NCBI GenBank assembly: GCA_030040795.1 | Contig: JASHTA010000315.1 | Span: 1-35,677 of the forward strand | Direction: 5' to 3' | DNA length: 35,677 nt | Source: Gammaproteobacteria bacterium | GTDB taxonomy: Bacteria > Pseudomonadota > Gammaproteobacteria > Steroidobacterales > Steroidobacteraceae | Shown: one piece after another, positions 1-19,004 of the stretch | How the letters are laid out: every line of letters begins with the position of its first letter | Numbering within the stretch: position 1 is the first letter of the stretch | Position numbers and translations under genes: made by a program | Notes under the pieces: model-generated | Databases searched by the model: none | The model's input: only the letters and a program-made list of their open reading frames with translations | Told to the model about the DNA's origin: nothing

Positions 1-1425
1 CATTCGGTCGGCGGGGCGGCCGAGCCGAATTGGGCCGTCGAGAGCGTGTCCGCGCCGGGCGAGGTGTGGAACCCCCGGGACGCGCGCGTTCAGGCGGTGA
101 TCGCGGGCTACGGCGCGCCGGCGGCATCGCGCACCGTCTCGCTCGTGGTGAATGGCCAGACCGTCGCGACGCGGCGCGTGGACGTGCCCGCATCGGGGCG
201 CGCCGTCGTCGAGTTCGATACGCTCGAGGTGCCGCACGGATTCAGCCGCTGCGCGGTGCGGATCGATTCTGCGGATGCGCTGCCGCAGGACGACGAGTAC
301 AGCTTTACGGTCGAGCGGTCGGACCCGAAGCGGGGCCTGTTCATTCACGAGGCCACCGATACGCGCTCGCCCCTTTATTTCGGTACGGCGCTGAGCTCCG
401 GGGCGCAAGCGGCGTTCAGGGTCGACACGGTCACGGCGGAGCAGGCCGCGCAAGCGGACCCCTCGCTCTATGCCTTCGTCGTGTTGTCGGATGTCGCCTC
501 GCTCCCCGCCGCCTTCACCGATCGGCTCGTCGAGTACGTGCGGCGGGGCGGAAGCGTGCTCATCGCGGTCGGGACGGCGGCGGCTCAGCAGGGGAGCATC
601 CCGGTCTTCGGCGGAGCGCTCGAGACCTCTCACCTCTACTCGCGGGAGCCGGAGCGATTCCTTTCGGTGGGGGAGGCCGACGCCACGTACCCGGCCGTTG
701 GGCAGCCGGTCGAGTGGGAGAGTGTAAAATTCTTTTACGCCGCAGGCGTGCAGGGGACGGGCTCGAGGGTCGCACTGCGGCTCTCGGACGGAACGCCGCT
801 GCTGCTCGAGAAGACGCTGGGGGAGGGGCGGGTTCTCGTTTTCGCATCGGGGCTCGACAATCTGACCAACGATCTGCCGCTGCATCCGGTCTTCGTCGCC
901 TTCATCGACCGCACCATCCGCTACCTGACCGGCACCGAGGGGCGCAGCAGCTCCCAGGTCGTGGGTGACTTCGTCGCGCTTCATGCGGCGAGGGACCGCG
1001 GAGTCGGCGTCGAGGTGGTGGATCCGCAGGGACGGCAACCGCTTTCCCTTGAGGCCGCCGCCTCGGCCCAGTGGCTGCAGCTCACGCAGGCCGGGTTCTA
1101 CCAGCTCAATTTCGCGAACGGCCGCGAGGATCTGATCGCCGCCAACCCGGACCGCCGCGAGTCCGATCTTGCCCCGATCCCGGGCAACGTATTGGCGCTG
1201 TGGAGCGGGAACACGAGGTCGGCCGCGGGGTCGGCCGCGGGTTCGGCCGCTGGGGCGGCTGCGGCAGGGCAAACTGCCGCAGGGCCGGCCGCCGCAGCGC
1301 TGCAGCAGGACACCCCGGCGGCGCACAGCCTCTGGTGGTACGCTATGTTGGTGCTCTTGTTGGCGGCGCTCGCGGAATCCGCCGTGGGCAGCCGGTACGT
1401 CGGCACTCTTCGGGAGGGGCCGTGA
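1..1425 (+). CDS. BatA/VWA-type membrane protein, C-terminal part (5' truncated by window edge)
   Basis: Frame 1 is open from base 1 (HSVGGAAEPNWAVESVSAPGEVWNPRDA...). Contains a YVRRGGSVLIAVG segment, a C-terminal TM (SLWWYAMLVLLLAALAESAVG) and a low-complexity SAAGSAAG linker. Followed by a DUF4175-like gene, as in MoxR/DUF58/BatA-type clusters. Confidence 0.65.
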   Translation, partial: HSVGGAAEPNWAVESVSAPGEVWNPRDARVQAVIAGYGAPAASRTVSLVVNGQTVATRRVDVPASGRAVVEFDTLEVPHGFSRCAVRIDSADALPQDDEYSFTVERSDPKRGLFIHEATDTRSPLYFGTALSSGAQAAFRVDTVTAEQAAQADPSLYAFVVLSDVASLPAAFTDRLVEYVRRGGSVLIAVGTAAAQQGSIPVFGGALETSHLYSREPERFLSVGEADATYPAVGQPVEWESVKFFYAAGVQGTGSRVALRLSDGTPLLLEKTLGEGRVLVFASGLDNLTNDLPLHPVFVAFIDRTIRYLTGTEGRSSSQVVGDFVALHAARDRGVGVEVVDPQGRQPLSLEAAASAQWLQLTQAGFYQLNFANGREDLIAANPDRRESDLAPIPGNVLALWSGNTRSAAGSAAGSAAGAAAAGQTAAGPAAAALQQDTPAAHSLWWYAMLVLLLAALAESAVGSRYVGTLREGP

Positions 1426-4400
1426 GCGCGAGTGCGAAGCTGCGTTCTTATGTCGAGCGGCTGCAGCGCAGGCTGCGGCTCGTTGCGGTGCTGCGCGGCG
1501 CCGCCGTTCTCGCGGCATCCGCCCTGATCGCCACCCTTCTCCTCACGGCGATCATCAACCGGCTCGCGTTCTCCCCGGCGAGCCTCTGGAGCGCTCGAGG
1601 CGTCCTGTGGCTGATTCTCGCGGCGGGCGCCGCGCTGGCGCTTGCCGTGCCGCTCTGGCGGCTGACTCTGCGGTGGTCGGCCAAGCGCGCGGAGCGCATC
1701 TTTCCGGACTTCCAGCAGCGCTTGCTCACGTTCACCGAGCGCGATCGCGCCGGTGATCCCTTCCTCGAGCTGCTTGCCGCGGACACCCTGCGGATGGCGG
1801 ATGCGGCGAGCCCCAAGCTCATCGTTCCGGATGCGGCGCTCACGGCGTTCGCCGGGGCGGCGGTCGCCTGTCTTGCCGCGCTGATCTGGCTCATTCGCTT
1901 TGGTCCCGGCTACTGGGGATACGGCGCGGCCGCGCTCTGGACGGGTCCGCCGGCGGGCCCGCTCTACGCCATTCGCGTGAGTCCGGGCGATGCCGCCGTG
2001 CGCCGCAATGGAGACCAGCTCGTCGTCGCCCGGCCGTTCGGGATTCAGGCGGATCGTGTGCGCATGTACGTGCGATACGGAGAGACCTCGCGGTGGGACC
2101 ACGTCGCCATGCAACCCCAGCCGCAGGGGTCGGGCTTCGAGTTTCTTCTCGCGGGCATTCCGGCGGATGTCGAGTACTACGTCGAGGCCGGCTCGCTCGA
2201 TTCGCCTCACTACCATCTGCGCGTCGTCGATGTGCCGGTCGTGAAGCAGGTTCGCGTCAAGTATCACTATCCCGCATGGACGAAGCTCGCCGATGCAGTG
2301 GACGAGCATGGCGGAGATCTTCGCGCCGTAACGGGCACGCAGGCCGAGCTCGAAGTGCGGACGGACCGGCCGATGCGCGACGGCGCGCTCGTGCTGGATA
2401 ACGGGCAGCAGATTCCGCTCGTGCCGCTCGCCGCCGGAACGGGCCCGGCCGCCGACACTTATCGAGCGACAGTGCCGATCGAGCACGACGGGGCCTATCA
2501 CGTCGCCGCGCGCGCCCAGGGCGAGACGCTTCGCATCTCGGAGGACTATTTCATCGAGGCGGGAGAGGTGCGTCCGCCCGAGGTTGCGATCATCCGGCCG
2601 GCCGGGGATTACCGCGCGAGCCCCATCGAGGAAGTCAACGTTGGGGCGAGGGGCTCGGATGCCTTCGGGCTGGCGGACCTGACGCTCCACTACTCCGTGA
2701 ACGGCGGGGCGGAGAAGACGGTTTCTCTTTTGAAAGAGGCGGGAGCGAAGCAGGCGAGCGGCTCGACCGTGATCAGCCTGGAGTCCCTGAAGCTCGTGCC
2801 GGGTGATGTCGTGAGCTACTACGCCACGGCGAAGGACGCGCGCGCGGAATCGCATACGGACATCGAATTCATCCAGGTCGATCCCTTCGAGCGCGATTTC
2901 TCTCAATCCCAGCAGGCAGGCGGGGGTGGGGGAGGGTTCGGGAACGGACAGGCGCAGATCGCGGAACGCGAGAAGGAGGTCATCGAGGAGACCTGGAAGC
3001 AGGCCGGCCTCAAGGGCGAGGCGTCCCAGCAAGCGGCGGAGCAGGCGAAGTTCCTCTCGGACGTGCAGGGCACGCTGCGCTCGCAGTCTCTCGCGCTCGC
3101 AGGGCGGGTAGAGCTGCGGGACCTCTCGATCGGCAACGAGGCGATCGGCAGCTTCCAGCAGGAAATGAGCGCGGCGGCGGAGGCCATGAGCCCGGCCGTG
3201 GAAAGCCTCGGTGGACAGAAGTGGAGCGAGGCGATCCCCGCGGAACAAAAGGCTCTTCAGCATCTGCTGCGCGCACAGGCGACGTTCCGTCAGATCGAGG
3301 TGGCATTCGGCAGGCTTGGCGCGGGCAGTGGCGCCGTGAATTCGGCCGGGCGCGACCTCGCAAGCCTGTTCGATCTCGAGCTCGACTTGCAGAAAAATCA
3401 GTACGAGACGCGTCCGGACGCTTCCGCGTCCGCGGGCCAGAGCTCCGGCCAGGTCGACGATGCACTCCGCAAGCTGGATGAGCTCGCGCAGCGGCAGGAC
3501 GCGCTCGCTGCGCAGCGTCAGGCCGCGGGCGATCAGACGGCCGAGCAGCGGTGGCAGCAGGAAGAGCTGAGGCGGCAAGCGGATGCGCTGCGCCGCCAGC
3601 TGGAGCAGCTCGCGCGCAACGAGCAGAACGGACAGGGCGCGCAGGGCATGCAGGGCGAACAAGGTGCCCAGGGCGAGCAGGGTGCGCAAGGCGAGCAGGA
3701 CGGACAGGGCCAGCAGAGTGGGCAGGATGCTGCGGATTCACAGGGCACGCAGGCTGGACAAAGCGGCAGCGGCGGTCGGTCCGGTGCTGCGAGCCGGCGC
3801 ATCGCCCAGGCGCTCGATGAGCTGCGCCAAGCCGAGGACGACATGCGTCGCGCGGTCGATCAGGGCGACGCCGCGGGCGCGCGTCGCGCCGCTGCGCGGC
3901 TGCGCGGCGCCATGCAGGCGCTCGGCGGTGTCCAGCAGCAAGAAGCGCAATCGCAGCTCGCAGCGCTGCAGCGGGAAGCGGACCGGCTCGCGGGGGAGGA
4001 GCGCAGTCAGGCGGCTCGCCTGCAAGAGCTGGAGCGCGGATCGCCTCCCGGGCTCAGTGCCTTTCGCGGAGGGCCATCGGATCTGCCACCCGTCCCGGGA
4101 TTGAGAGGCGGACCCGGCGATGTGCAGTCGATGATCGACGATCGCCAGAAGCTCGCGGACGAGCTCGGTCAGCTGGAGGGTCGAATGCGGGATGCCGAGC
4201 GCGGCGCTTTGCCTCGCAGCCGCACGGCGGCCTCGAAGATCCGGGATGCGCTGAGCGACCTCGATGAGTCGGAGACGCAGATGCTCCTGCAGCGAAGCGC
4301 CGATCAGATGCGGCGCGGCTACATTGCGCAGGCCGACTCGACGGAAGGGGACATCCAGGCGTCGCTGCAGCAATTGAGCCGCCAGCTCGCCGAGGCGGGC

Positions 4401-5135
4401 GATGCGCTCGCGCAGGGCCAGCCGCCGGCGCAAGACGCACTGGACGACGTGGAGCGGCTGCGTGATCGGCTTGCGGCGCTCGATCCGCAACTTCGCAACT
4501 CGGCGGAAGGACGCCCCGGGGGCCGCGAGGGTCAGCCCGGTCAGCCCGGTCAGTCCGGCCGGCTCAGTCGGTCGGGACAAGCGGGACAACCTGGGCAGGC
4601 GGGACAGGCCGGACAAGCGGGACAGGCTGGACGAGGCGGCGAGGCCGGCGTGGACGGCGGACTCGTCGGACCCGTGACGGCGGGGGGTGGCGGTCGCGGC
4701 GGATTCGTGAACGGCGGGTGGAATTCGGGGAACAACGGGCCCTATGGCGGCCGTGCGGCGGCACCCGACACCTCAACGCCGCCCCCGATATCTCCGGCGG
4801 ATGCCGAGCGGAGCTACCGGCAGGGCATGAGCGAGCTCGGCCAGCTGCGGCGCGCCGTCGGCAACGATGAGGCGCGGCGCCGCGAGGTCGATGAGCTCAT
4901 CCGCTCCATGCAGCATCTCGATCCGCGGCGCTTCCCGGGCAATCCGGCGATGGTCGAGGAGCTGTACGGGCGTGTGCTGACCGACGTCGACCAGCTCGAG
5001 CTGCAACTCCGTCATCAAACAGGTGAGGAGCAGGGGGCCGATGTGCGAAGCGATCGCCCTCAGACGGTGCCGTCGGGCTACCAGGATGCCGTCGCGGAGT
5101 ACTATCGGCGGCTCAGCAAGAATCAGACTCCTTGA
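1422..5135 (+). CDS. DUF4175-like large membrane-anchored coiled-coil protein
   Basis: The 1071..5135 ORF is better started at GTG 1422 (VSASAKLRSYVERLQRRLRLVAVLRGAAVLAASALIATLLL), which overlaps the upstream TGA as GTGA. Two N-terminal TMs, a central beta-rich region and a long Q/R/E-rich helical region. Confidence 0.7.
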   Translation: MSASAKLRSYVERLQRRLRLVAVLRGAAVLAASALIATLLLTAIINRLAFSPASLWSARGVLWLILAAGAALALAVPLWRLTLRWSAKRAERIFPDFQQRLLTFTERDRAGDPFLELLAADTLRMADAASPKLIVPDAALTAFAGAAVACLAALIWLIRFGPGYWGYGAAALWTGPPAGPLYAIRVSPGDAAVRRNGDQLVVARPFGIQADRVRMYVRYGETSRWDHVAMQPQPQGSGFEFLLAGIPADVEYYVEAGSLDSPHYHLRVVDVPVVKQVRVKYHYPAWTKLADAVDEHGGDLRAVTGTQAELEVRTDRPMRDGALVLDNGQQIPLVPLAAGTGPAADTYRATVPIEHDGAYHVAARAQGETLRISEDYFIEAGEVRPPEVAIIRPAGDYRASPIEEVNVGARGSDAFGLADLTLHYSVNGGAEKTVSLLKEAGAKQASGSTVISLESLKLVPGDVVSYYATAKDARAESHTDIEFIQVDPFERDFSQSQQAGGGGGGFGNGQAQIAEREKEVIEETWKQAGLKGEASQQAAEQAKFLSDVQGTLRSQSLALAGRVELRDLSIGNEAIGSFQQEMSAAAEAMSPAVESLGGQKWSEAIPAEQKALQHLLRAQATFRQIEVAFGRLGAGSGAVNSAGRDLASLFDLELDLQKNQYETRPDASASAGQSSGQVDDALRKLDELAQRQDALAAQRQAAGDQTAEQRWQQEELRRQADALRRQLEQLARNEQNGQGAQGMQGEQGAQGEQGAQGEQDGQGQQSGQDAADSQGTQAGQSGSGGRSGAASRRIAQALDELRQAEDDMRRAVDQGDAAGARRAAARLRGAMQALGGVQQQEAQSQLAALQREADRLAGEERSQAARLQELERGSPPGLSAFRGGPSDLPPVPGLRGGPGDVQSMIDDRQKLADELGQLEGRMRDAERGALPRSRTAASKIRDALSDLDESETQMLLQRSADQMRRGYIAQADSTEGDIQASLQQLSRQLAEAGDALAQGQPPAQDALDDVERLRDRLAALDPQLRNSAEGRPGGREGQPGQPGQSGRLSRSGQAGQPGQAGQAGQAGQAGRGGEAGVDGGLVGPVTAGGGGRGGFVNGGWNSGNNGPYGGRAAAPDTSTPPPISPADAERSYRQGMSELGQLRRAVGNDEARRREVDELIRSMQHLDPRRFPGNPAMVEELYGRVLTDVDQLELQLRHQTGEEQGADVRSDRPQTVPSGYQDAVAEYYRRLSKNQTP
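3625..3786 (+). repeat. Coding low-complexity collagen-like G-Q/A-Q repeat tract
   Basis: Translates as GQGAQGMQGEQGAQGEQGAQGEQDGQGQQSGQDAADSQGTQAGQSGSGG. Confidence 0.85.
4531..4640 (+). repeat. Second coding collagen-like tract
   Basis: Translates as GQPGQPGQSGRLSRSGQAGQPGQAGQAGQAGQAGRGG; tandem 9-bp (GGACAGGCN-type) units. Confidence 0.85.
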
Positions 5136-7466: not shown

Positions 7467-9863
7467 TCATTCGTAGCGGAGCGCCGCGACCGGCCTGGCG
7501 CGAGCGACGCGGAGCGCGTGCCCCAGAACGGTCGCCCAGGAGATCGCGATCACGGCGGCGCCCGCCGCCAGGAAGCTCGCGGCGCCGAGCTCGATGTGAT
7601 AGGCGAAGCCTGCCAGCCAGCGGTCCATCACGACGTAGCACACCGGCCACGCGAGCAGCTGTGCCCAGAGCACCGGCAGCGTCAGCTGCCTCAGCAGGAG
7701 GCGCAGCACATCGGCTCGTCCCGCGCCCATCGCCTTGCGGATGCCCATCTCCTTGGTGCGCCGCTCGGCGATGGACGAGGCAAGGCCGTACATCCCGGCG
7801 CACGCAAGCAGCAGCGCGATCGCGGAGCAGGCGGAGAAGACAGCGCCATCGGCCTCGAGGTCCGCATAGAGCTCACGGAGCATCTGCGCCACGGGGAAGC
7901 GGCTCACCGGTCGGGAGGGGTCGAGCTGCGCCCAGCGCGCGTCGATCGCCGCGAGCGCCTGGGCTTCCTGCGGCGCGCTCACCTTCACGCTCAGGAGATC
8001 GAACTGCTTGGGGTCGACGTAGAAGACCGTCGCGTCGATCGGAGAGCGGATGGAGCGGGTGGGGAAGTCGGGCACGACGCCGATGATCTCGGACGGTGGG
8101 CCAAATACGTTGACCAGCTCTCCGACGGCCGCTCGGGCCGATGAGAAGCCGAACTTGCGGACTGCCGTCTCGTTGATGACGATCGGCGCGCCGCGCGTCG
8201 AGCTCGTTCCGCCGGGTGCCGCGTCGCCGCCTCGATCTCTCGAGAAGAAGCGCCCCGCGACGGGCTTCAGGCCGTAGAGCTCGAAGAAGTCGAAGTCGAC
8301 GGCCTCGTCGGTGAAGAAGGTCTTCACGCCGCGGCGCACCGTCCCGAAGCTTTTCGTATAGATGTAGCCGAGCGGAGCGCTCGCCGAGCACGCCGCTGAA
8401 ACGACTCCGGGAAGCGTCCGGAACGTGTCGGCGTCCGTCCGTCCGCACGCGCCGTTCACCGCGAAGATCCTCGTGGTATCCAAGCGGCCGACCATTCTCT
8501 CGGCATAAGAGGTCTGATCGAAGACGACGACGATCGCGATGGCGAGGCCGGTGAGCACGGCAAACTGTACGGTGACGAGAGCGCTCCGCACGGCTTCGCC
8601 ACCGGCGCGGGTGGCCCCTCCGCGGAGCGCCGTGACCGGCCGAAAGGACGACAGGATGACGGCTGGATACAATCCAGCCAGCACGCCGACCACGGAGGCG
8701 AAGCCGACGGCCGCCGGAAGGATCGAGGAATCGTGGAGGTAGTCGAATGTCAGACGCGATTGCGAGAGGCGGTTGAACACGGGAAGCAGCAGCTCGGCGA
8801 TACCGAGGGCGACGAGTAAGGCGAGCCCGGTACGGAGCAGGGCCTCGCCGATGAACTGGACGATGAGCGTCCGGCGCGTGGCGCCCACCGCCTTGCGTAT
8901 GCCCACCTCGACATGACGGGCCGCGGCACGAGCGGTCGATAGATTGACGAAGTTGATCGCGGCCGCGAGCAGGATGAGCAGTCCCACCGCCGCGATGGCA
9001 TAGAGGAGGGCCGGGCTGCCGCGAGCCTTCATGGCGCCCTCGGCCGGCGGCAGCCTGTGAATGGCCGCGATCGGCACCACGGAAAAGGAGAATCGCAAGC
9101 CTCCCGCCATTTTGGGCTTGTAGAGCGCCGCGATGAAGTCGTGCAGCGACGCTCGAACCTGGTCGAGCGTGGCCGCCTGCGGCAGCCGGAAGTAGGTATA
9201 AGCGTCCACACTCTTTCCGAACGCCAGCGGCTGGGCGTCGAGCGGGGTAAACGAGGAGAACGAGGCGAGGCTCGAGGCGACGATACCGAAGTTGAGGTGA
9301 GTGTTCGGCGGCAAGTCCTCGATGACGGCTGCGACACGCAGCAGGTGCTTGTCGTCGAGCAGGAGCGTCTGGCCGACCGGATCGTCGCGGCCGAAAAGCT
9401 GCCGCGCGAGCGTGCGGGTGAGGACGATGTCATCGGGTCTGCGCAGCGCTCGAGCGAGATCTCCCGCGACGACCGGGAACCGGAAGATGTCGAAGAACTC
9501 CGGGTCCGCCCAGGACAGCCGCTCGAGCGAGCTCACGGTGCCGACGCGGATACCGTGCCGACTGCCTACGTCGATCCGCGCGATCTGCCGAATCGGCAGG
9601 CGCACCGCGAGCCAGCGCGCAACGTCCGGCGGCGTGACATCGATGGGAACCGGCGCTCCCGCCGGGTCGGCGTACGATGAGGAGATGCGGTAGATGCGCG
9701 CATAGCCGGGGAGGAAATGCTCGTACGTCAAGTCGTTGCGCACGTACAGCGCGGCAATGAGCGCGGCGGCGAGCCCCACCGCGAGCCCGCAAATGCCGAT
9801 GGCCGCATGCAGCTTGTTGCGCGCGAGATTGCGCAGCGCGGCCATGAGGTAGTTGCGAAGCAT
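7467..9863 (-). CDS. ABC transporter permease, MacB-PCD/double FtsX type (798 aa)
   Basis: MLRNYLMAALRNLARNKLHAAIGICGLAVGLAAALIAALYVRNDL; MacB-type periplasmic region; two FtsX-like modules, each followed by (RTKE)MGIRKAMGAGR / VEVGIRKAVGATR signatures. Confidence 0.9.
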   Translation of the reverse strand: MLRNYLMAALRNLARNKLHAAIGICGLAVGLAAALIAALYVRNDLTYEHFLPGYARIYRISSSYADPAGAPVPIDVTPPDVARWLAVRLPIRQIARIDVGSRHGIRVGTVSSLERLSWADPEFFDIFRFPVVAGDLARALRRPDDIVLTRTLARQLFGRDDPVGQTLLLDDKHLLRVAAVIEDLPPNTHLNFGIVASSLASFSSFTPLDAQPLAFGKSVDAYTYFRLPQAATLDQVRASLHDFIAALYKPKMAGGLRFSFSVVPIAAIHRLPPAEGAMKARGSPALLYAIAAVGLLILLAAAINFVNLSTARAAARHVEVGIRKAVGATRRTLIVQFIGEALLRTGLALLVALGIAELLLPVFNRLSQSRLTFDYLHDSSILPAAVGFASVVGVLAGLYPAVILSSFRPVTALRGGATRAGGEAVRSALVTVQFAVLTGLAIAIVVVFDQTSYAERMVGRLDTTRIFAVNGACGRTDADTFRTLPGVVSAACSASAPLGYIYTKSFGTVRRGVKTFFTDEAVDFDFFELYGLKPVAGRFFSRDRGGDAAPGGTSSTRGAPIVINETAVRKFGFSSARAAVGELVNVFGPPSEIIGVVPDFPTRSIRSPIDATVFYVDPKQFDLLSVKVSAPQEAQALAAIDARWAQLDPSRPVSRFPVAQMLRELYADLEADGAVFSACSAIALLLACAGMYGLASSIAERRTKEMGIRKAMGAGRADVLRLLLRQLTLPVLWAQLLAWPVCYVVMDRWLAGFAYHIELGAASFLAAGAAVIAISWATVLGHALRVARARPVAALRYE

Positions 9864-9888: not shown

Positions 9889-10569
9889 CTACGCCGCGAG
9901 CAGCGTCTCGCTCACGACGCGTCCGTCGAGCAGCTTCACGGTGCGCTTGGCGCGCGCGGCGTGCACGAGGGAGTGGGTCACCATCACGACCGTCGTGCCC
10001 GCGGCATTGAGGCCCGCGAGCAGATCCATCACGGCGGCGCCGTTTTCCGTATCGAGGTTGCCCGTCGGCTCGTCGGCCAGGATCAGCTTCGGCTCCGCAA
10101 CCAGGGCACGGGCGATGGCCACGCGCTGCTGTTGGCCTCCGGAGAGCTGCTGCGGCAGGTGGCGAGCGCGATGCGCAATGCCCACCCGTTCGAGGGCCGC
10201 AGCGATACGCCGCTTGCGGTCGCCGCGGGAGACGTGGCGGTAGAGCAGGGCGACCTCAACGTTCTCGGCGACATTGAGATCGTCGATGAGATTGAAGCTC
10301 TGGAAGATGAATCCCACACCCGTACGCCGCAGTGCGGTGAGCCTCTGCTCGGAATACTTCGAGACCTCCTCGCCGAAGAACCAGTAGGCCCCGCCGTCGG
10401 GGCTGTCGAGGAGCCCGAGAATGTTGAGCAGCGTCGACTTGCCGCAGCCGGAGGGTCCCATGATCGCGACGAACTCGCCGGCGGCCACCTCGAGCGATAC
10501 GTCATCGAGCGCGCGGGTCTCGACCTCGGTGGTGCGATAGGTCTTGCGGATGCTTTCGAGCCTCAGCAT
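9889..10569 (-). CDS. ABC transporter ATP-binding protein, MacB/LolD type
   Basis: Walker A GPSGCGKST, signature LSGGQQQRVAIARAL, Walker B LILADEPTGNLD. Confidence 0.95.
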   Translation of the reverse strand: MLRLESIRKTYRTTEVETRALDDVSLEVAAGEFVAIMGPSGCGKSTLLNILGLLDSPDGGAYWFFGEEVSKYSEQRLTALRRTGVGFIFQSFNLIDDLNVAENVEVALLYRHVSRGDRKRRIAAALERVGIAHRARHLPQQLSGGQQQRVAIARALVAEPKLILADEPTGNLDTENGAAVMDLLAGLNAAGTTVVMVTHSLVHAARAKRTVKLLDGRVVSETLLAA

Positions 10570-10587: not shown

Positions 10588-11856
10588 TTACTTCTCAAGA
10601 TCGATCCGATCGATGCGCTCCAGGCCGGAATAGTCGGAGATGATGACCCGGTCGCCGACCGCAAGACCCCCGAGGATCTCGACTTGCTCGGCGTTGCGGC
10701 GACCGAGCTTGATTCGGCGCCGCCGCGCCGAGCGGCCGTCCCGGGTCAGCACGAATGCCCAGTCGCCGCCGGTACGCTCGAGGAAGGCGCCTGCGGGAAG
10801 GACCGTCCCCACCTGGTCGGCGCCGAGCGATAGTCGGCCCTGCACAGTCTGTCCGGGCAGCAGCCCCTTCGGCTCGGCGCCCTGGAACGACAAGTCGATC
10901 GTGAACGTACCGTCCTTCACCTCGGGATAGACGCGGGTCACCTGGGCCGAGAAGGTCTGCTCGCCGATATCGACCTGCGCAGTCTGGCCGACCGCGACGC
11001 GCTGCAAGTAGTACTCGTCCACGTCCGCCGAGAGCTTGTAACCGGTCTGCGGGGTGATCTCGGCGAAGCGCTCGCCGCGATTGCGATTCTCGCCGACTTT
11101 CAGGTCCATCGAGGTGAGCCGACCGGTCACGGGCGCCCGCACCGTGAGGTTGTCGAGCTTGCCGTGCGTGATCTTGAGGTCTTGCTGAAGCTTGTCGATC
11201 TGGCTCTCGATCTCCGGCAGCTGGCGCACGCGCAGCTCCTCCTGCCTCTCGTTGCTCTGCTCTTGCAGGGGCCGCAGCTTCAAGTCGTAATTGAGCTCGT
11301 CCTGCACGGAGTCCAGGGCTTCGACCGGCTCGAGCGTCCGCCCGAGCGCCTTGCGCCGAGCGTAGGAGCGCTGCAGCCGGATGATGTTGTAGTCGATCGT
11401 CGCGAGCGCCTTCTGGTTCGATACTCGATTCTGCTCGAGCTGCGTCTGATAGGACTGGAGCTCCGTGATCGACTCGATCATCCTCGCCTCGCGGTCGAGC
11501 ACGTCGAGCTCGAGCTCCGTATTGCTGAGCTCGACGAGCGGCTGGCCCTTCGTCACCATGTCGCCCGCTTGCGCGAGAATGCGCTCCACGCGGCCGCCCT
11601 CCATCGCATCGAGATAGACCGTTTGAAGTGCCTGGACCGTCGCGTGGAGGGGAACGAAGTCGTGAAACGTCCCCCGCGCCACCGTCGCGACGGTGACATT
11701 GGCGAGCGGCATGCGGACGCTGCGCTCCGCCGTTCCGAAAAGCAGAACGACCGTCGTGAATCCGAGAGCGACGACTGCCGCACCGACACCGAGCTGTATC
11801 ACGTGGCGCTTGCGCCACCACGGCAGCGAGATCGGCCGATCCATCGCGAAGCTCAT
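10588..11856 (-). CDS. HlyD/RND-type periplasmic adaptor of the MacB-like exporter
   Basis: Likely ATG 11856 (MSFAMDRPISLPWWRKRHVIQLGVGAAVVALGF) inside the 10588..12048 ORF; lipoyl halves, coiled coil and VRAPVTGRLTSMDLKVGENRNRG. Confidence 0.85.
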   Translation of the reverse strand: MSFAMDRPISLPWWRKRHVIQLGVGAAVVALGFTTVVLLFGTAERSVRMPLANVTVATVARGTFHDFVPLHATVQALQTVYLDAMEGGRVERILAQAGDMVTKGQPLVELSNTELELDVLDREARMIESITELQSYQTQLEQNRVSNQKALATIDYNIIRLQRSYARRKALGRTLEPVEALDSVQDELNYDLKLRPLQEQSNERQEELRVRQLPEIESQIDKLQQDLKITHGKLDNLTVRAPVTGRLTSMDLKVGENRNRGERFAEITPQTGYKLSADVDEYYLQRVAVGQTAQVDIGEQTFSAQVTRVYPEVKDGTFTIDLSFQGAEPKGLLPGQTVQGRLSLGADQVGTVLPAGAFLERTGGDWAFVLTRDGRSARRRRIKLGRRNAEQVEILGGLAVGDRVIISDYSGLERIDRIDLEK

Positions 11857-11876
11857 TGCAGTCTTCCGCGCGCCAT
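11853..11876 (-). other. Candidate 7-codon leader ORF (MARGRLQ*) coupled to the adaptor start
   Basis: Minus strand ATG GCG CGC GGA AGA CTG CAA TGA; its TGA overlaps the adaptor ATG as ATGA; starts 7 nt after a TACACT hexamer. Confidence 0.25.
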
Positions 11877-11880
11877 CCCA

Positions 11881-11894
11881 CGCAGTGTAAGTCA
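11881..11894 (-). promoter_or_regulatory. Shared motif TGACTTACACTGCG, copy 1
   Basis: Exact 14-bp match to 18895..18908 (plus-strand CGCAGTGTAAGTCA), just upstream of the adaptor gene. Confidence 0.4.
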
Positions 11895-11937
11895 CCAAGC
11901 CGTCCGCAAGAACGGTATATAAATCAGTTAGATACGC

Positions 11938-11978
11938 CGATTCGAAGCCTCTCGATGGCCGAGGCTTGTCCGGAATCG
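11938..11978. promoter_or_regulatory. Compound inverted repeat in the divergent intergenic region
   Basis: Outer arms CGATTC/GAATCG (11938-11943/11973-11978) and inner perfect arms AAGCCTC/GAGGCTT (11945-11951/11961-11967). Confidence 0.45.
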
Positions 11979-12077
11979 AACACCCTCTGAGCCCCGCGCA
12001 GCGCAGGCGGCCGCCCCGCAAATGCGAGTGCGTGGTGATGGTTGTCACGCGCTCGGCGGGGGTCGTACGCTCGTCGA

Positions 12078-12620
12078 ATGGACGGCATCGCGGTTCTTGT
12101 CGTGGAGGATGATCCGGATGTTCGCCGCTCCGCGCGCGTCGCGCTCGCTCCTCATACGGAGCGCGTGGAGGAAGTCGAGTCGGCTGCGGAGCTGGAGAGC
12201 GTTCTCGCTGCCGGCGCCTTCAACGTCGTGCTGCTGGATATGAATTTCGTCGCCGGCGAGCGCAGTGGCGCGGCGGGTCTCGATGCGCTCGGCCGCATCC
12301 GGAGCTTCGATCCGACGATCGCCGTCGTGTTGATGACGGCCTACGGCGGTGTCACTCTCGCGGTGGACTCGCTCAAGCGGGGCGCGGCCGACTTCGTTCT
12401 GAAGCCCTGGCGCAACGACAAGCTCGTAGCGGCAATCGGGGCCGCTGCGGAGGTCACCCGCTCGCGGCGTGCGACGGAGACGCTGCAGCTCGCGGCGCTC
12501 GAGCGGAGCGCCATCGAGCGTGCGCTCGCGCGCTTCCAGGGAAACATCTCCTCGGCGGCTTCGGCGCTCGGCTTGAGCCGCGCGGCCCTCTATCGGCGCA
12601 TGGCGAAGCATGGACTCTAG
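12078..12620 (+). CDS. Response regulator: receiver plus Fis-type HTH, lacking AAA+ domain
   Basis: VLVVEDDPDVRRSARV, NVVLLDMNF, VLMTAYG, FVLKPW; C-terminal ALERSAIERALARFQGNISSAASALGLSRAALYRRMAKHGL. ATG 12078 (MDGIAVLVVEDD). Confidence 0.9.
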   Translation: MDGIAVLVVEDDPDVRRSARVALAPHTERVEEVESAAELESVLAAGAFNVVLLDMNFVAGERSGAAGLDALGRIRSFDPTIAVVLMTAYGGVTLAVDSLKRGAADFVLKPWRNDKLVAAIGAAAEVTRSRRATETLQLAALERSAIERALARFQGNISSAASALGLSRAALYRRMAKHGL

Positions 12621-14055
12621 TCTCGCCGGCACGAACCGGCTCGCGCTCGCCGTGGCCTGGCGAGCTCTCCTCATCGGGGCGCTCGCGTTTCTCGTCTTTC
12701 GCATTCTCACCGGCACTCACCTCTACGCCACCGCATTGCTCGTCCTCGTTGTCGCAGGCCTCATCGCCGCGGATCTGTCGCAGGTCATCGGCAGGATCGT
12801 GAGAAGCGCGGAGCGCGACCTGGAGAGGCTGGTGGCTGCGGTCAGCGATTCGCCGGCCGGGACCGGAGCGAGCCCATACCCGGGACAATCGGCTCGCCCC
12901 TTCGATCAGGCTGCAGCCCTTCTCACTGCAGCGCGCATGGAAAGGCAGGTGCAGCTCGAGTACGTCCAGACGTTGCTCGATACCGTCGCGGCGGCATTGA
13001 TCGTCGTCGAGCCGGACGGGCGCGTGACTTTTGCAAACCGCGTTGCCCGTGCTCTGAGCGCCGGACCGGCTCAGCGGCTCGGCGATGTGCCGGCGATCGG
13101 AGACTCCGCCGCCCCCGCTCTGCTCGCCCTTCGCGCGGGAGCTCGGGAGATCATCTCGACGGCTGACGGCCAACGGATGTTCGTCTCGGTCTCGCACTTT
13201 ACGATTCCCGGGCGCGAGCCGCGGCGGCTCATCGCTCTGCAACGTATCGCGGGCGATCTCGATGCCGTGGAGCTGAAAGCCTGGCAAGACATGGCGCATG
13301 TGCTCGCGCACGAGATGATGAACTCGCTCACGCCCATCGCATCTCTGTCCGAGAGTCTGGAGGTCTTGCTCAAGACGGCCGAGCGCGCGGGGCCGGCCGA
13401 TGTCGCGCACACCAATGAGGATCTCGTCACGGCGCTCGAGGCCATCAAGCGGCGCAGTCTCGGTCTCATGGATTTCGTCGAGCGCTATCGGGCCGTCGCG
13501 GAGCTTCCGCGTCCGAGACTGCAACAGGTGCAGATGCACGCGCTGGTGCGTGCAGTGAGCCACCTCATGGGCGCAAGGCTCGACCAAAGCGGTGTCGACT
13601 ACCGCATCCTCGTGGAACCCGAGGATCTCTGCGCGGATGCCGATCCGCAGCTTCTGGAGCAGGCCCTCATCAACTTGCTGCGCAACGCGGCGGACGCGGT
13701 CGCGGGAGTCGAGAAGCCTCGCATAGAGGTCTCCTGCCGCGCGCGCGACGAGCAGGTGGCGATCGAGGTCTCGGACAACGGCATGGGCGTGCCGGAGGAC
13801 CAGCGCGATCAAATCTTCGTGCCGTTCTTCACGACGAAGGCCGGCGGCTCCGGCATCGGATTGAATCTGGCGCGCCAGATCGCGCTGAGCCACGGCGGGC
13901 GGCTCGAGCTCCGCGCGAATCCTCTGCGGGGATGCGTGTTCACGTTGCTGCTGCCGGCCGCGCGGCCGGTGGCGAGGGGAGGGCAGGAGCTGACAGGCAT
14001 GGCGGAGGCGGCTCCAAGGGCAACTGGCGCGGGCATTCTCCCTTCCCCCTTGTAA
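12610..14055 (+). CDS. PAS-containing sensor histidine kinase, NtrB/NtrY-like
   Basis: Two TMs; DTVAAALIVVEPDGRVTFANRVAR (PAS); MAHVLAHEMMNSLTPIASLSESL (H box); INLLRNAADAV (N box); VSDNGMGVP; GGSGIGLNLAR. Overlaps the regulator stop by 11 nt. Confidence 0.93.
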   Translation: MDSSLAGTNRLALAVAWRALLIGALAFLVFRILTGTHLYATALLVLVVAGLIAADLSQVIGRIVRSAERDLERLVAAVSDSPAGTGASPYPGQSARPFDQAAALLTAARMERQVQLEYVQTLLDTVAAALIVVEPDGRVTFANRVARALSAGPAQRLGDVPAIGDSAAPALLALRAGAREIISTADGQRMFVSVSHFTIPGREPRRLIALQRIAGDLDAVELKAWQDMAHVLAHEMMNSLTPIASLSESLEVLLKTAERAGPADVAHTNEDLVTALEAIKRRSLGLMDFVERYRAVAELPRPRLQQVQMHALVRAVSHLMGARLDQSGVDYRILVEPEDLCADADPQLLEQALINLLRNAADAVAGVEKPRIEVSCRARDEQVAIEVSDNGMGVPEDQRDQIFVPFFTTKAGGSGIGLNLARQIALSHGGRLELRANPLRGCVFTLLLPAARPVARGGQELTGMAEAAPRATGAGILPSPL

Positions 14056-14074: not shown

Positions 14075-14088
14075 ATATCTTACGATAT
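14075..14088. promoter_or_regulatory. Inverted repeat ATATC-TTAC-GATAT, candidate PadR autoregulatory operator
   Basis: Perfect 5-bp arms overlapping a candidate -10 and the padR start codon at 14087. Confidence 0.5.
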
Positions 14089-14752
14089 GTTTTACGATAA
14101 TGACTTCTCTCATCGGGACCCCTCCTGGATCTACTGGATGGGGCGGCATCACGGCGGCCGGGGCTTCGGGCATTCCGCGGGCGGATTCATGGGCGGGTTC
14201 GGGTTCGGGCGGGGCGGCATGCACTTTCGCACGGGGCGCAAGCTCGCCGCTGCGGACCTGCAGCTCGTCATCCTGGCGCTGCTCGCGGACAGGCCGAGCC
14301 ACGGCTACGAGCTCATCAAAGCGGTGGAGGAGCGATCTGGCGGCTTCTACAGCCCGAGCCCGGGGGTCATCTATCCGGCCCTCACGTACCTCGAGGAGAT
14401 CGGCCACGTGACCGTGGAGCCCGAAGGCACGAAGAAGCTCTACCACCTCACCGAGGCAGGCCGCGAGCATCTCGCGCAGCATCGCGCGACGGTCGACGCC
14501 ATGCTGGCCGAGCTGGAGCGCATCGGTCGCAAGATGGAGCATGTCCGCCGGGTCTTCACCGGCGAGGCGCGCGCGGGCGAGGAACGGGGGGGCGAGGACG
14601 AGGGTTTCGATCCCCGCCGCTCGAGAGAGCTGCACGCCGCGCGTCATGCTCTGAAGATGGCGCTGTTCGAGAAGCGAGGGAGCTCGCGCGAAGAGGTGAA
14701 GCGGATTGCGGAGATCCTCAAGCGCGCCGCCGAGGAGATCCGCGGCAAGTGA
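14087..14752 (+). CDS. PadR-family transcriptional regulator, YqjI-like
   Basis: Gly/His-rich N-terminus (MGRHHGGRGFGHSAGGFMGGFGFGRGGMHF) then LQLVILALLADRPSHGYELIKAVEERSGGFYSPSPGVIYPALTYLEEIGHVTVEPEGTKKLYHLT. Confidence 0.92.
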   Translation: MFYDNDFSHRDPSWIYWMGRHHGGRGFGHSAGGFMGGFGFGRGGMHFRTGRKLAAADLQLVILALLADRPSHGYELIKAVEERSGGFYSPSPGVIYPALTYLEEIGHVTVEPEGTKKLYHLTEAGREHLAQHRATVDAMLAELERIGRKMEHVRRVFTGEARAGEERGGEDEGFDPRRSRELHAARHALKMALFEKRGSSREEVKRIAEILKRAAEEIRGK

Positions 14753-14805
14753 GCTCGCATCCTCGGCGGCCGATGCAAGCTCACGGTACAGGAGTCGATT
14801 CGAGA

Positions 14806-15447
14806 ATGTCCCAGCCCGCAGGTCCGATCCTCGATTCCCGGGTGAACTCAGTCATCGCCCGGATGCAGGCTGCGCGAAACTATCCGTCGAACGGCGGTCC
14901 GCGCCGCAACCGGGAGGCCCGCGATCCCAATTTGTATGCGGAGTACGGCTTCTCGATCTATCCCGAGCAGGGCGACCTCATCTATCTGCTGTGCCGGGCG
15001 CAGCGCGCCACGCGAGTCGTCGAGTTCGCGACCTCGCTCGGCTTCTCGACCCTGTATTTCGCGGCCGCCGTCAGGGACAATGGCGGCGGAATCGTCATCG
15101 GCTCCGAGCTCGTGCCGCAGAAGGTTCAGGCCGCGCGGCGCAATCTCGCGGACGCCGGGCTTGCGGACTACGCGCAGATCCGTCAAGGAGATGCGCGCGA
15201 GACGCTGCGGGACCTCGGCGGACCGGCTGATTTCGTGCTGATAGACGGGTGGCCTGGCGATGACGGACCGTCGCTTGCGCTTCAGGTGATGAGGATCGTC
15301 GCGCCCCAGGTGCGCACCGGCGGTCTCGTCATGAACGACAACGCGGAGGACGACTACCTGGAATATGTGCGCAATCCCGCGAACGGCTTTCGCTCGCTGT
15401 CGCTGCCGCTCAAGGGCGGGACCGAGCTCTCCGTGAAAGTGGCCTGA
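14806..15447 (+). CDS. Class I SAM-dependent (O-)methyltransferase, copy 1
   Basis: RVVEFATSLGFSTLYFAAAVRDNGGGIVIGSEL...ADFVLIDGW...; ATG 14806 (MSQPAGPIL) preferred over GTG 14749. Confidence 0.8.
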   Translation: MSQPAGPILDSRVNSVIARMQAARNYPSNGGPRRNREARDPNLYAEYGFSIYPEQGDLIYLLCRAQRATRVVEFATSLGFSTLYFAAAVRDNGGGIVIGSELVPQKVQAARRNLADAGLADYAQIRQGDARETLRDLGGPADFVLIDGWPGDDGPSLALQVMRIVAPQVRTGGLVMNDNAEDDYLEYVRNPANGFRSLSLPLKGGTELSVKVA

Positions 15448-15506
15448 GCGCCGGATTGACTGCCGCGGGCCCATTGACCGACCAACGTTACCGCAAGATC
15501 AGATCC

Positions 15507-16166
15507 ATGACATCCCTTCAATCGCCGGCCGTGCGGGCCGTACTCGACCGGCTTTACGCCGAAGCGGAGCGGAACGACGAGGAGGTGCTGCCGCGCGTGC
15601 GGGCGGCGGCCGAGCGCCTCGGGGGCTCCTACGACGACCGCAAGGTTGCGCATCTGCTCGACGATGCCTTCATTCCGGTATGCCCGGAGGTGGGCCAGCT
15701 GCTCTACGTGCTCGTCCGCACGCGAAGGCCGAGGGTCGTCGTGGAGTTCGGAGCCTCGTTCGGGCTCTCGGCGATCCACCTGGCCGCGGCGCTGCGCGAC
15801 AACGGCGAAGGCAGGCTGATCACGACCGAGCTGAATGCATTCAAGGCCGGCCGGGCGATAGAGCACTTTCGCCAGGCCGGCCTTGCCGATCTCATCGACT
15901 TGCGGCAAGGCGATGCGTTCGAGACGCTCGAGGGTGTGCGAGGCATCGACTTCCTGATGCTCGATGGCTGGAAGAGCCTTTATCTGCCGCTGCTGCAGAG
16001 GCTCGAGCCCGCGCTCGGCCCGGGCTGCCTCGTCGCGGCGGACGACATCAACCTGATGCAGGATCTGTTGAAACCCTATCTCGCGTACGTGCGAGACCCC
16101 AAGAACGGGTACACCTCGTGCGAGGTGCCGATCGACGACGGAGTGGAAGTGTCGCTGCGCGGATGA
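15507..16166 (+). CDS. Class I SAM-dependent (O-)methyltransferase, copy 2
   Basis: RVVVEFGASFGLSAIHLAAALRDNGEGRLITTEL...IDFLMLDGW...; paralogous to copy 1. ATG 15507 (MTSLQSPAVRAVL) preferred. Confidence 0.8.
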   Translation: MTSLQSPAVRAVLDRLYAEAERNDEEVLPRVRAAAERLGGSYDDRKVAHLLDDAFIPVCPEVGQLLYVLVRTRRPRVVVEFGASFGLSAIHLAAALRDNGEGRLITTELNAFKAGRAIEHFRQAGLADLIDLRQGDAFETLEGVRGIDFLMLDGWKSLYLPLLQRLEPALGPGCLVAADDINLMQDLLKPYLAYVRDPKNGYTSCEVPIDDGVEVSLRG

Positions 16167-16459
16167 GGCTTTGTCAGAAGGCCCGCGGATTTCGCGCCGG
16201 GAACATCGAATCTCAGCCATCCGCCAAGGCTCACCTCGATCGCCGGATCGTGAGTGGAAGGACCGGCGCGCAGTCTCAATGTGAGAGCGAACCGATAGGT
16301 GTGGGAGAGCCCGGGGAAGGGTAAGTAACTCACGCTCGTCCTCGCGCTCAGGAACGAGACAAGGAGAATGACGGCAGCCGCGAAGACTGCGAGCCGCAGG
16401 CGCGGCCTATTCGTAGTGGAGCGCGGCAATGGGCTTGGCCTGTGCCACTCGGAGCGCAT
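16076..16459 (-). CDS. Possible small membrane-anchored protein downstream of the second permease
   Basis: 127-aa ORF with a basic N-terminus, a TM-like stretch (RLRLAVFAAAVILLVSFL) and a periplasmic-looking tail; overlaps the permease 3' end and the methyltransferase 3' end. Confidence 0.3.
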   Translation of the reverse strand: MRSEWHRPSPLPRSTTNRPRLRLAVFAAAVILLVSFLSARTSVSYLPFPGLSHTYRFALTLRLRAGPSTHDPAIEVSLGGWLRFDVPGAKSAGLLTKPHPRSDTSTPSSIGTSHEVYPFLGSRTYAR

Positions 16460-18890
16460 GTCCCACGACGGTCGCCCACGCGATGAGCAGCGCGATCGCT
16501 CCTGCGGCGAGAAAGGCGGCGGCGCTCAGATCGATGTGATACGCGAATCCCCGCAGCCAGTGGCGCATCGCGAGGAACACGACCGGCCATGCGACGAGGT
16601 TCGCCCACAGCACAGGCTTCGTGAACTGCCAGAGGAGCAGGCGGACGATGTCGCTACGCTCCGCGCCCATCGCCTTGCGCACGCCGATCTCCTTCGTGCG
16701 TCGCTCGGCGGTGAAGGCCGACAAGCCGAAGAGCCCGAGGCAGGCGATCAGCACCGCAATGCCGGAGAAGCCGGTGAACACGTCCCCGCGGCGCGTGATA
16801 TCGAGATAGACGTCCTGCATGTGCTGGTCCACGAAGAATCCTGTCATCGGCTTGGTATTTCCCGTATCTCTCCACAGGCTGCGAATGGCTGCCAGGGTCT
16901 CCGGAATCTCGTGTCCGGCGAGCTTGACGTTGAGAATGTCGAAAGAATTCGAGTAGACGACATAGAAGATCGGCGGAATCTGCTTGGCGACCGAGCTGAA
17001 GGAGAAGTCGCGAACGACGCCGATCACCTCGAGCGGTCGGCCGCCGACGAACAGCTGTTTGCCGATCGCTGCTTCGGGCGATGTGAACCCGGCGCGGTGA
17101 ACGCCTGCCTCGTTGAGCACGATCCGGCCCTCTGGCGGGGACGCCGCATCAGGCAACGCTGAGGGGTGCAGGAGCAGAGTGGCCAGATCGGGCGCCGCGG
17201 CTGCCGGCGCATCCCCGGGATGGCTGCGGGAGAAGAATCGCCCGGCGAGTGGGCGGAGCCCATACAGCTCGAAGAACCCGTAATCGACAGAGATGCCGTC
17301 TATCGGCACGTACGTGCCGTCGCGGAGACGCAGACTCCAATGGGATTCCTCGGCGAGGCTCAGTGCGCCGGACCACGCACACGCCGCCGCTCGCACTCCC
17401 GGCAGAGCGCGAACCCGGTCGGGAAAGGCGCCGTAGCAAGCGCCACGCCGAAGTCCACCGGGCCCGGAAGCGAAGCCGATGGAGACCACGAAGACCTGGT
17501 CCTTGTCGACCCGTAGCCCTTCGTTCAGGGCGTAATGAACCTGCCGATAGATGACCACGGTCGATATGCAGAGGCCGATGAGCACGGCGAACTGCAGCGT
17601 CACCAGAATCGCCCGCACGCGCCCCGATCCCGGCGTGGCGTGGGCGGCGCTCTTGAGGACCGCTGCCGGAGCAAATGCCGACAGGACGAGCGCAGGGTAG
17701 GTGCCCGCAAGCGCTGCCACCAGCAACGTCGCTGCAATCAGCGTGCCGGCGACGGTGGGATCGTGCCAGTACCCAAAGCCGATGTGGCGGCCGAGGAAGG
17801 CGTTGAGCTGCGGCAGCAGCACCTCGACCAGTCCCACTGCGATGAGCATCGAGAGCGCCGCATAGACGGCGGTCTCGCCGATGAACTGGGCGACCAGCTG
17901 CCGGCGCACGGCGCCCGCAGCCTTGCGTATTCCCACCTCGACCGCGCGCCGCGCGGCGCGCGCCGTCATGAGATTGATGAAGTTGAAGCTGGCGACCAGG
18001 ATGACGAGGAGTCCGACGAGCGAGACGGCATAGATCGTGGACCAGTCCCCCGTCGGCTTCATCGACTGCTCCGTGAACGCAGTAACGTGAAGCTCATCGA
18101 CCCGGACGAGTGGGAGCGACAGGTTGTAGTGCCTCGTCATGGCAGGCATGCGATGAGCCAGAAACGCAGGGATTTCTCGCCGCAGGCGCTCGATGGAGAC
18201 GCCTGGCGCAAGGCGCAAGTACGTGTAGACGAGATCGTCCGTGTCGGCGTGATTCGGGTCCTTGTCCAGCTTCGCTAGCGCGGAGAACGAGCCGCGTCCG
18301 GAGGCGATCGCTTGAATGTCGAGATGACTATTCGGCGGTAGATCCTCGAGTACCGCCCTCACCCGCATCGGGTATCGCCGGTCGATCTGGATCACCTCCC
18401 CGATCGGATTGTCGCGACCGAAGTACTTGCGAGCGAGGCTTCGGGTGAGGACGATGCCATCGGGCGCCTGCAACGCCGTTCGCAGGTCACCCGCGACCGC
18501 CCGCAACCGCAGGAGATCGAAGATATTCGGATCGGCCCAGTACAGCTTCTCGTCGGCCTCGACGTTTCCGTGGCGGAGCGTCCGTTGGTCCGGGCAGAGT
18601 CGCGCAACGGCCTCGATCCCGGGAAAATCGAGCTTCAGAAATCCGGCGATCGAAGCATCGATCGTGGGCGTCCAGATGGCGGACTGGCCGGGAATCGTGA
18701 AGAGCTCGGAAGCGAGATATGTGCGCTGGTGATCGGGGAGGAAGCGGTCGTAGCTCAGCTCATCGCGGACGAAGAGCGCGATCAGGATCGCCGCGGCGAA
18801 GCCGGCGGCGAGCCCCGCGACGTTGATGCCGACGTAGAGTCGGTCTCGCATCAGATTGCGCAGCGCCGCGGCCAGATAGTTTCGGAGCAC
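16407..18890 (-). CDS. ABC transporter permease, MacB-PCD/double FtsX type (827 aa), second copy without adjacent ATPase
   Basis: GTG start, MLRNYLAAALRNLMRDRLYVGINVAGLAAGF; VEVGIRKAAGAVRRQLVAQFIGE and RTKEIGVRKAMGAERSDIVRLLLWQF. Confidence 0.92.
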   Translation of the reverse strand: MLRNYLAAALRNLMRDRLYVGINVAGLAAGFAAAILIALFVRDELSYDRFLPDHQRTYLASELFTIPGQSAIWTPTIDASIAGFLKLDFPGIEAVARLCPDQRTLRHGNVEADEKLYWADPNIFDLLRLRAVAGDLRTALQAPDGIVLTRSLARKYFGRDNPIGEVIQIDRRYPMRVRAVLEDLPPNSHLDIQAIASGRGSFSALAKLDKDPNHADTDDLVYTYLRLAPGVSIERLRREIPAFLAHRMPAMTRHYNLSLPLVRVDELHVTAFTEQSMKPTGDWSTIYAVSLVGLLVILVASFNFINLMTARAARRAVEVGIRKAAGAVRRQLVAQFIGETAVYAALSMLIAVGLVEVLLPQLNAFLGRHIGFGYWHDPTVAGTLIAATLLVAALAGTYPALVLSAFAPAAVLKSAAHATPGSGRVRAILVTLQFAVLIGLCISTVVIYRQVHYALNEGLRVDKDQVFVVSIGFASGPGGLRRGACYGAFPDRVRALPGVRAAACAWSGALSLAEESHWSLRLRDGTYVPIDGISVDYGFFELYGLRPLAGRFFSRSHPGDAPAAAAPDLATLLLHPSALPDAASPPEGRIVLNEAGVHRAGFTSPEAAIGKQLFVGGRPLEVIGVVRDFSFSSVAKQIPPIFYVVYSNSFDILNVKLAGHEIPETLAAIRSLWRDTGNTKPMTGFFVDQHMQDVYLDITRRGDVFTGFSGIAVLIACLGLFGLSAFTAERRTKEIGVRKAMGAERSDIVRLLLWQFTKPVLWANLVAWPVVFLAMRHWLRGFAYHIDLSAAAFLAAGAIALLIAWATVVGHALRVAQAKPIAALHYE

Positions 18891-18894
18891 GCCG

Positions 18895-18908
18895 CGCAGT
18901 GTAAGTCA
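18895..18908 (-). promoter_or_regulatory. Shared motif TGACTTACACTGCG, copy 2
   Basis: Exact 14-bp match to 11881..11894, 4 nt upstream of the GTG start of the second permease. Confidence 0.4.
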
Positions 18909-18948
18909 GAGCATCGCGGCGCGTAACGGCGGAGAATTCAAGTACTTA

Positions 18949-18963: not shown

Positions 18964-19004
18964 GGTGCGGCCGGTGCGGCCGTTCGGAATCGGACAATGG
19001 CACC

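Follow-up and report, generated by a model that had tools for sequence, protein, structure and literature searches.

An NtrC-type response regulator without its AAA+ domain, and the probable conversion of a σ54-dependent exporter regulon to σ70-type control

The regulator gene and its surroundings

The window, by which we mean the whole 35,677-nt stretch of contig JASHTA010000315.1 analysed here (a Gammaproteobacteria bacterium of the family Steroidobacteraceae, assembly GCA_030040795.1), belongs to a genome, referred to below as G000, of which the assembly is fragmented (565 contigs, 77% complete). On its plus strand, an open reading frame at 12078–12620 (ATG at 12078, stop codon at 12618–12620) encodes a response regulator of 180 residues. 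Pfam searches recognise a receiver domain (Response_reg, residues 6–120, E = 3.8e-19) and a Fis-type helix-turn-helix (HTH_8, residues 138–177, E = 8e-13) but no Sigma54_activat domain, as had been claimed in the initial annotation, and the AAA+ module is cleanly absent in an alignment with full-length proteins. The acidic pair, D54, T87 and K109 of the receiver show no variation in 18 relatives. In the AlphaFold model (pLDDT 90), the receiver is predicted to be followed by one unbroken helix (residues 113–152), starting from its helix α5 and running into the HTH. The solved structures nearest to the regulator by sequence are a Bacteroides receiver (2qr3) and the receivers of NtrX and FleR.

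The gene of a histidine kinase (12610–14055, plus strand) overlaps the stop codon of the regulator gene, and the proposed pairing of the two holds. Profile searches and sequence motifs identify two transmembrane segments with almost no periplasmic part, together with the landmarks of this family (H-box HEMMN, N and G boxes, HATPase_c); the best matches are AtoS/FixL/ZraS-type models, with no RegB-type model among the matches listed. The divergence from an exporter operon also proved correct, as profile searches find on the minus strand an HlyD/MacA-type adaptor as its first gene (10588–11856, alternative start at 11844), a MacB/DarD-like ABC ATPase (9889–10569) and an FtsX/MacB permease (7467–9863). 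A second FtsX/MacB permease (16407–18890, minus strand) is a predicted second target on account of the promoter element upstream of it.

Other features of the region can be mentioned briefly. A mini-ORF (ATG GCG CGC GGA AGA CTG CAA TGA, 11853–11876, minus strand) begins 7 nt past the −10 hexamer of the exporter promoter described below; its TGA overlaps the ATG of the adaptor gene and an equivalent exists in G001, a related genome, so that a leader peptide with translational coupling is possible. Immediately after the kinase gene lies a PadR-family regulator whose N-terminal stretch is rich in Gly and His (14087–14752), also found beside the kinase in G001, and two tandem Methyltransf_24/O-methyltransferase genes (14749–16166) separate both exporter loci. 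An ORF of 1354 residues at 1071–5135 has no Pfam match. Elsewhere in G000, two σ54 (rpoN) genes are carried by contigs C420 and C411 (L059, L060). The Rfam search gave no match, and the plasmid search nothing close.

Relatives and descent of the short regulators

Our survey covered 148 relatives and three sets of genomes, from the family (217), the class (369) and the order (396); it yielded 18 regulators lacking AAA+ in 16 genomes. The short form recurs at 93% identity in G001, a separate assembly, and at 16 further loci. Three groups can be distinguished: group 1 contains 11 such regulators, including that of the window, across several genera of Steroidobacteraceae; group 2 contains four (G084, G210 and second copies in G245 and G246, hereafter G245b and G246b); and group 3 contains three (G661, G707 and G779), in a different family of the same order. 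The next best matches are nearly all full-length receiver-AAA+-HTH proteins, mostly of 445–483 residues, and their loci display the same divergent arrangement of adaptor, ABC ATPase, FtsX and kinase genes as those of the short forms. A scan of genome contigs returned mostly full-length and unrelated receivers. Another receiver-Fis protein without AAA+ (L041 in G036, and G066:C315) has the HTH sequence LYRKKQ; its long branch is not placed by the receiver tree, and it may represent a further independent case.

Length and junction of the short protein are conserved among the 18 genes. The short proteins are functional, as dN/dS is about 0.09 for the G000/G001 pair (dN 0.034, dS 0.38) and 0.08–0.10 for two other species pairs. 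A deletion created during assembly, against which the initial annotation had warned, is ruled out, the same protein being present in independent assemblies and under purifying selection.

In phylogenetic analyses of the receiver, group 1 forms a clade (support 100/95) whose sister is the full-length protein of G156 (100/97), and which is nested among AAA+ proteins; group 2 stands apart from it with full support (100/100). The RegA-like proteins from this order and class make up a clade far from it, and a union of group 1 with that clade is rejected (AU test on the receiver, p = 0.0024). The HTH is 60–64% identical to that of the nearest AAA+ relatives, versus 36–50% to that of RegA-like proteins. 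The regulator is therefore not a member of the RegA/PrrA family, and the receiver tree, the receiver plus HTH tree and the HTH identities all place it within the NtrC-type activators, bearing out the descent first suspected from its HTH. Both this descent and the loss of the AAA+ domain are established by comparison of sequences.

The loss did not occur only once. When kinase, adaptor and ATPase are combined in one tree, groups 1 and 2 cannot be joined in a single clade (AU p = 5e-53), and when group 3 is included, the well-supported branches of the partner-gene tree require at least three changes; group 3 is nested next to the full-length proteins of G688, G717 and G768. A single loss of AAA+ is thus rejected by the partner-gene trees, although a common clade of groups 1 and 2 is not rejected by the receiver alone (AU p = 0.053), nor is a short clade by any partner gene taken singly. 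As inferred from these trees, at least three independent losses are needed in related bacteria. G156, whose regulator is full-length, groups beside G013, which has a short form, in the kinase and adaptor trees and outside all short forms in the regulator tree, a discordance that suggests either a further loss within group 1 or that the regulator gene was exchanged there by recombination.

Operator, σ54 sites and the exporter promoter

The region between regulator and adaptor starts was scored for matches to TGGCACG-N4-TTGCW, the known consensus of σ54 sites, in which GG and GC were mandatory. A −24/−12 match of 10–12/12 directed toward the exporter is found in 39 of 41 AAA+ clusters (the exceptions being G603 and G696); by the same scoring, a site of at least 10/12 before the exporter occurs in 0/17 clusters lacking AAA+. 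The intergenic DNA of group 3 still aligns by column with that of its full-length relatives, the σ54 site having been mutated in place (TGGCAC..TTGC to TGGTAG..TTGA), and just 3' of the mutated site lies a TCTAAT hexamer, 98–99 bp from the first operator. In about half of the AAA+ relatives (for example L053, L054, L244 and L263), GAFTDA or GAFTNA replaces GAFTGA; this loop is presumably σ54-competent, since such relatives retain σ54 sites of 10–12/12.

A palindrome, TGTYCG-N4-CGNACA, is present in all 17 clusters lacking AAA+ and in 39/41 AAA+ clusters, the same 39 that have a σ54 site. In the window it lies at 11967–11982 (TGTCCGGAATCGAACA; minus strand TGTTCGATTCCGGACA), and we regard it as a putative operator from comparison, without binding data. 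In G000, just two sites match the exact palindrome on both strands: this one and 4004–4019 of contig C202. Two copies, typically 20–31 bp apart, are found in 37/39 AAA+ clusters, with 73–75 or 84–86 bp between the nearer operator and the −12 element, and a single copy in groups 1 and 2. A perfect 7-bp repeat just downstream of the operator (AAGCCTC-N9-GAGGCTT) was considered and rejected as an operator, no repeat of this kind being reported there in the relatives.

All ten group 1 regions with a divergent adaptor carry a TA[CT]ACT hexamer 87–89 bp from the operator (centre to centre), with intergenic lengths of 115–434 bp in nine and 1,638 bp in G192. When group 1 is aligned on this hexamer, the conserved islands are the operator, an IHF-like YAA-N4-TTGATW at 46 bp, the −10 itself and, at −23/−22, a TT that is −35-like given a 17-bp spacer. 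On the minus strand of the window, the corresponding elements are the −10-like TACACT at 11884–11889, 88 bp from the operator centre; the −35-like TTCTTG at 11907–11912, 17 bp before the −10, of which only the TT is conserved in the group; and the IHF-like TATCTAACTGATT at 11922–11934 (7 of 9), centred 46.5 bp from the operator centre. Each IHF-like match in the clusters lacking AAA+, including that of the window, is weak taken singly, with conservation residing in the position. The AAA+ clusters have the same element at set positions between operator and σ54 site, so the IHF-like bend was probably inherited. A standard σ70 scan of 11800–12150 found no promoter, the −10 being visible only through comparison, and no convincing −10 was found in group 2 (G084, G210, G245b and G246b) when a clear one was sought. 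The G192 locus (L198) contains about 1.4 kb of extra DNA between regulator and adaptor, where an ORF resembling a secreted protein or lipoprotein, possibly an outer-membrane factor, begins right after the TACACT promoter.

The motif and its spacing were first spotted by eye in these same sequences, ahead of a genome-wide search in which the composite operator-N75..80-TAYACT was run against the 217 family genomes with a reversed control. Seven exact matches were obtained, every one in a genome with a group 1 regulator, and the reversed composite gave 0 in each genome listed. Six of them are expected promoters; the seventh lies on contig C202 of G000, before a lone FtsX permease gene. Allowing two mismatches yields chance matches, so the limit was set at one. 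At this limit, extra sites appear in group 1 genomes before the second FtsX gene of the window, before FtsX genes of G245 (C3) and G246 (C11), and before the adaptor and the ABC genes of a split exporter in G250, all with a 77-bp gap and most with an IHF-like element at 46 bp. The remaining one-mismatch matches are known regulator-adaptor promoters and one unplaced site in G210, a group 2 genome. Before the second FtsX gene of the window, the putative elements are an operator at 18981–18996 (minus strand TGTCCGATTCCGAACG, 1 mismatch; no binding data), an IHF-like TAAGTACTTGAAT at 18936–18948 (minus strand, 8 of 9), centred 46.5 bp from the operator centre, and TACACT at 18898–18903 (minus strand), 88 bp from it. 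Because these promoters are unlinked, the spacing is not explained by the shared ancestry of one intergenic region. The shared operator, the loss of the σ54 site, the fixed spacing and the extent of the predicted regulon are all read directly from the DNA, and give strong support at that level to the earlier proposal of σ70-type control of the divergent exporter (σ54 site gone, operator kept, −10-like hexamer at fixed spacing), while activation is inferred.

The regulator gene has a putative σ70-type promoter of its own (TTGTCA-N18-TACGCT, 12042–12071, plus strand), read from the sequence without statistics, whose −10 has its last base 7 nt ahead of the ATG. The same distance to the start codon is seen for the −10 hexamers preceding the second FtsX gene (18890–18903) and the C202 FtsX gene (L241, 3913–3926), and leaderless mRNAs are predicted for all three.

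From σ54 to σ70: proposed mechanism, alternatives and known systems

The reading that we favour, with a probability of roughly 0.8, is that a σ54 enhancer-binding protein was converted into a σ70-type activator of the exporter regulon and retained its operator, and probably the bend in the DNA as well; that it activates, and does so with σ70, is an inference. The ancestor would have been a σ54-activating NtrC-type protein controlling a MacB-type exporter. An in-frame loss of the AAA+ module would have let the last helix of the receiver pass directly into the Fis-type HTH. The kinase would phosphorylate D54, as we infer, and a dimer of the regulator would bind the single palindrome, some 97 bp ahead of the predicted start of exporter transcription (at about 11876–11877), and touch RNA polymerase carrying the housekeeping sigma factor at a promoter whose −35 is weak and whose −10 is TACACT, possibly assisted by the bend at the IHF-like element kept from the σ54 ancestor. 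IHF binding is itself inferred, and the choice of activation over repression and of σ70 rests on geometry, not on experiment. The regulon of G000 is predicted to comprise three promoters, all preceding MacB-family exporter genes. The two-transmembrane kinase with almost no periplasmic part, located beside a MacB-type exporter, suggests that the signal could be envelope stress or the state of the transporter, which is conjecture.

The most serious alternative, though an unlikely one, is that the short regulator acts as a repressor or anti-activator on the old enhancer site, silencing the exporter or its own gene without activating any σ70 promoter. Operators are often near or over the start of the regulator gene, making autorepression likely as a side function, and the exporter promoter does have a −10 despite its weak −35. 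That weak −35 nevertheless suggests dependence on an activator, the operator is too distant from the predicted start for simple blocking, and a contact with polymerase accounts better for the strict spacing of 88 bp to the −10, which recurs at promoters that are not linked. It is very improbable that a full-length paralog provides the AAA+ domain in trans, with the short protein joining it at σ54 promoters: two rpoN genes remain in G000, a paralogous regulator C-terminus with a kinase lies on contig C538, and in G001 there is a full-length paralog whose operator is of the same type, so that cross-binding is plausible, but none of the 17 clusters lacking AAA+ has kept a σ54 site, through three independent losses.

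Nor can we give much credence to an ordinary ActR/RegA/PrrA protein that merely happens to lie beside an exporter, in spite of the same domain order and size, a best full-length structural match to a receiver plus HTH regulator (3rqi) and a weak match to NF033791. The latter reaches 55.5 bits against an NCBIfam cut-off of 250, the HTH reads GLSRAALYRRMAKHGL and lacks the GMHRRTLQRKL signature, synteny and operator match those of the AAA+ relatives, and the RegA-like clade is distant, its union with the window's group being rejected as given above. In so fragmented and incomplete a genome, one might suspect an error of assembly or annotation, or a pseudogene in decay, but this can practically be dismissed in view of the 18 short genes from 16 genomes, their conserved length and junction and the low dN/dS in three species pairs.

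Conversion to σ70-type control bears on a broader question. Transcription by σ54 and by σ70 is mechanistically separate, NtrC-type activators normally require their ATP-driven AAA+ domain for transcription to start, and how a regulon passes from one sigma factor to the other is, to our knowledge, mostly a matter of conjecture. In the present case, forms resembling the ancestor occur alongside converted ones, in the same gene cluster and with a shared operator. There are three independent replicates, and in one the change is so recent that the defunct σ54 site aligns base by base; whether promoter or protein changed first, and what conversion minimally requires, are therefore directly testable. 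These gene clusters are a natural record of one transcription mechanism becoming another. We lean, with some reserve, towards regarding the combined loss of AAA+ and of the σ54 promoter as a repeatable route to σ70-type control (taken at least three times in one order), in which the operator is inherited, together with the IHF-like bend in the case of the window's group, and which may yield RegA-like regulators. No report of the loss of a whole AAA+ domain coupled to promoter conversion was found in the open-access literature, the only literature consulted, and this is weak evidence of absence.

Compared with the NtrC-family enhancer-binding proteins of the exporter-cluster clade, the regulator's locus has in common the receiver motifs DMNF and KPW, the HTH, the kinase, the divergent exporter and the palindrome. 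It differs in lacking AAA+ (with its Walker motifs and GAFTGA-type loop) and the σ54 site; groups 1 and 2 are also without the second operator copy. The known receiver-Fis regulators are those of the RegA/PrrA kind, and ActR/RegA/PrrA proteins have the same domain order and about 180 residues; the mode of action at σ70 promoters is probably the same, whereas the descent is separate and the HTH signature, the kinase partner (not of RegB type) and the target differ. NtrC-family proteins without GAFTGA that act at σ70 promoters include the NtrC of Rhodobacter capsulatus and of Caulobacter, and VspR of V. cholerae (PMC10274813). In these too, members of a σ54-activator family have moved to σ70 promoters, but they keep the AAA+ fold, whereas in the clusters described here the entire domain is missing, repeatedly so, and the ancestral promoter can be traced.
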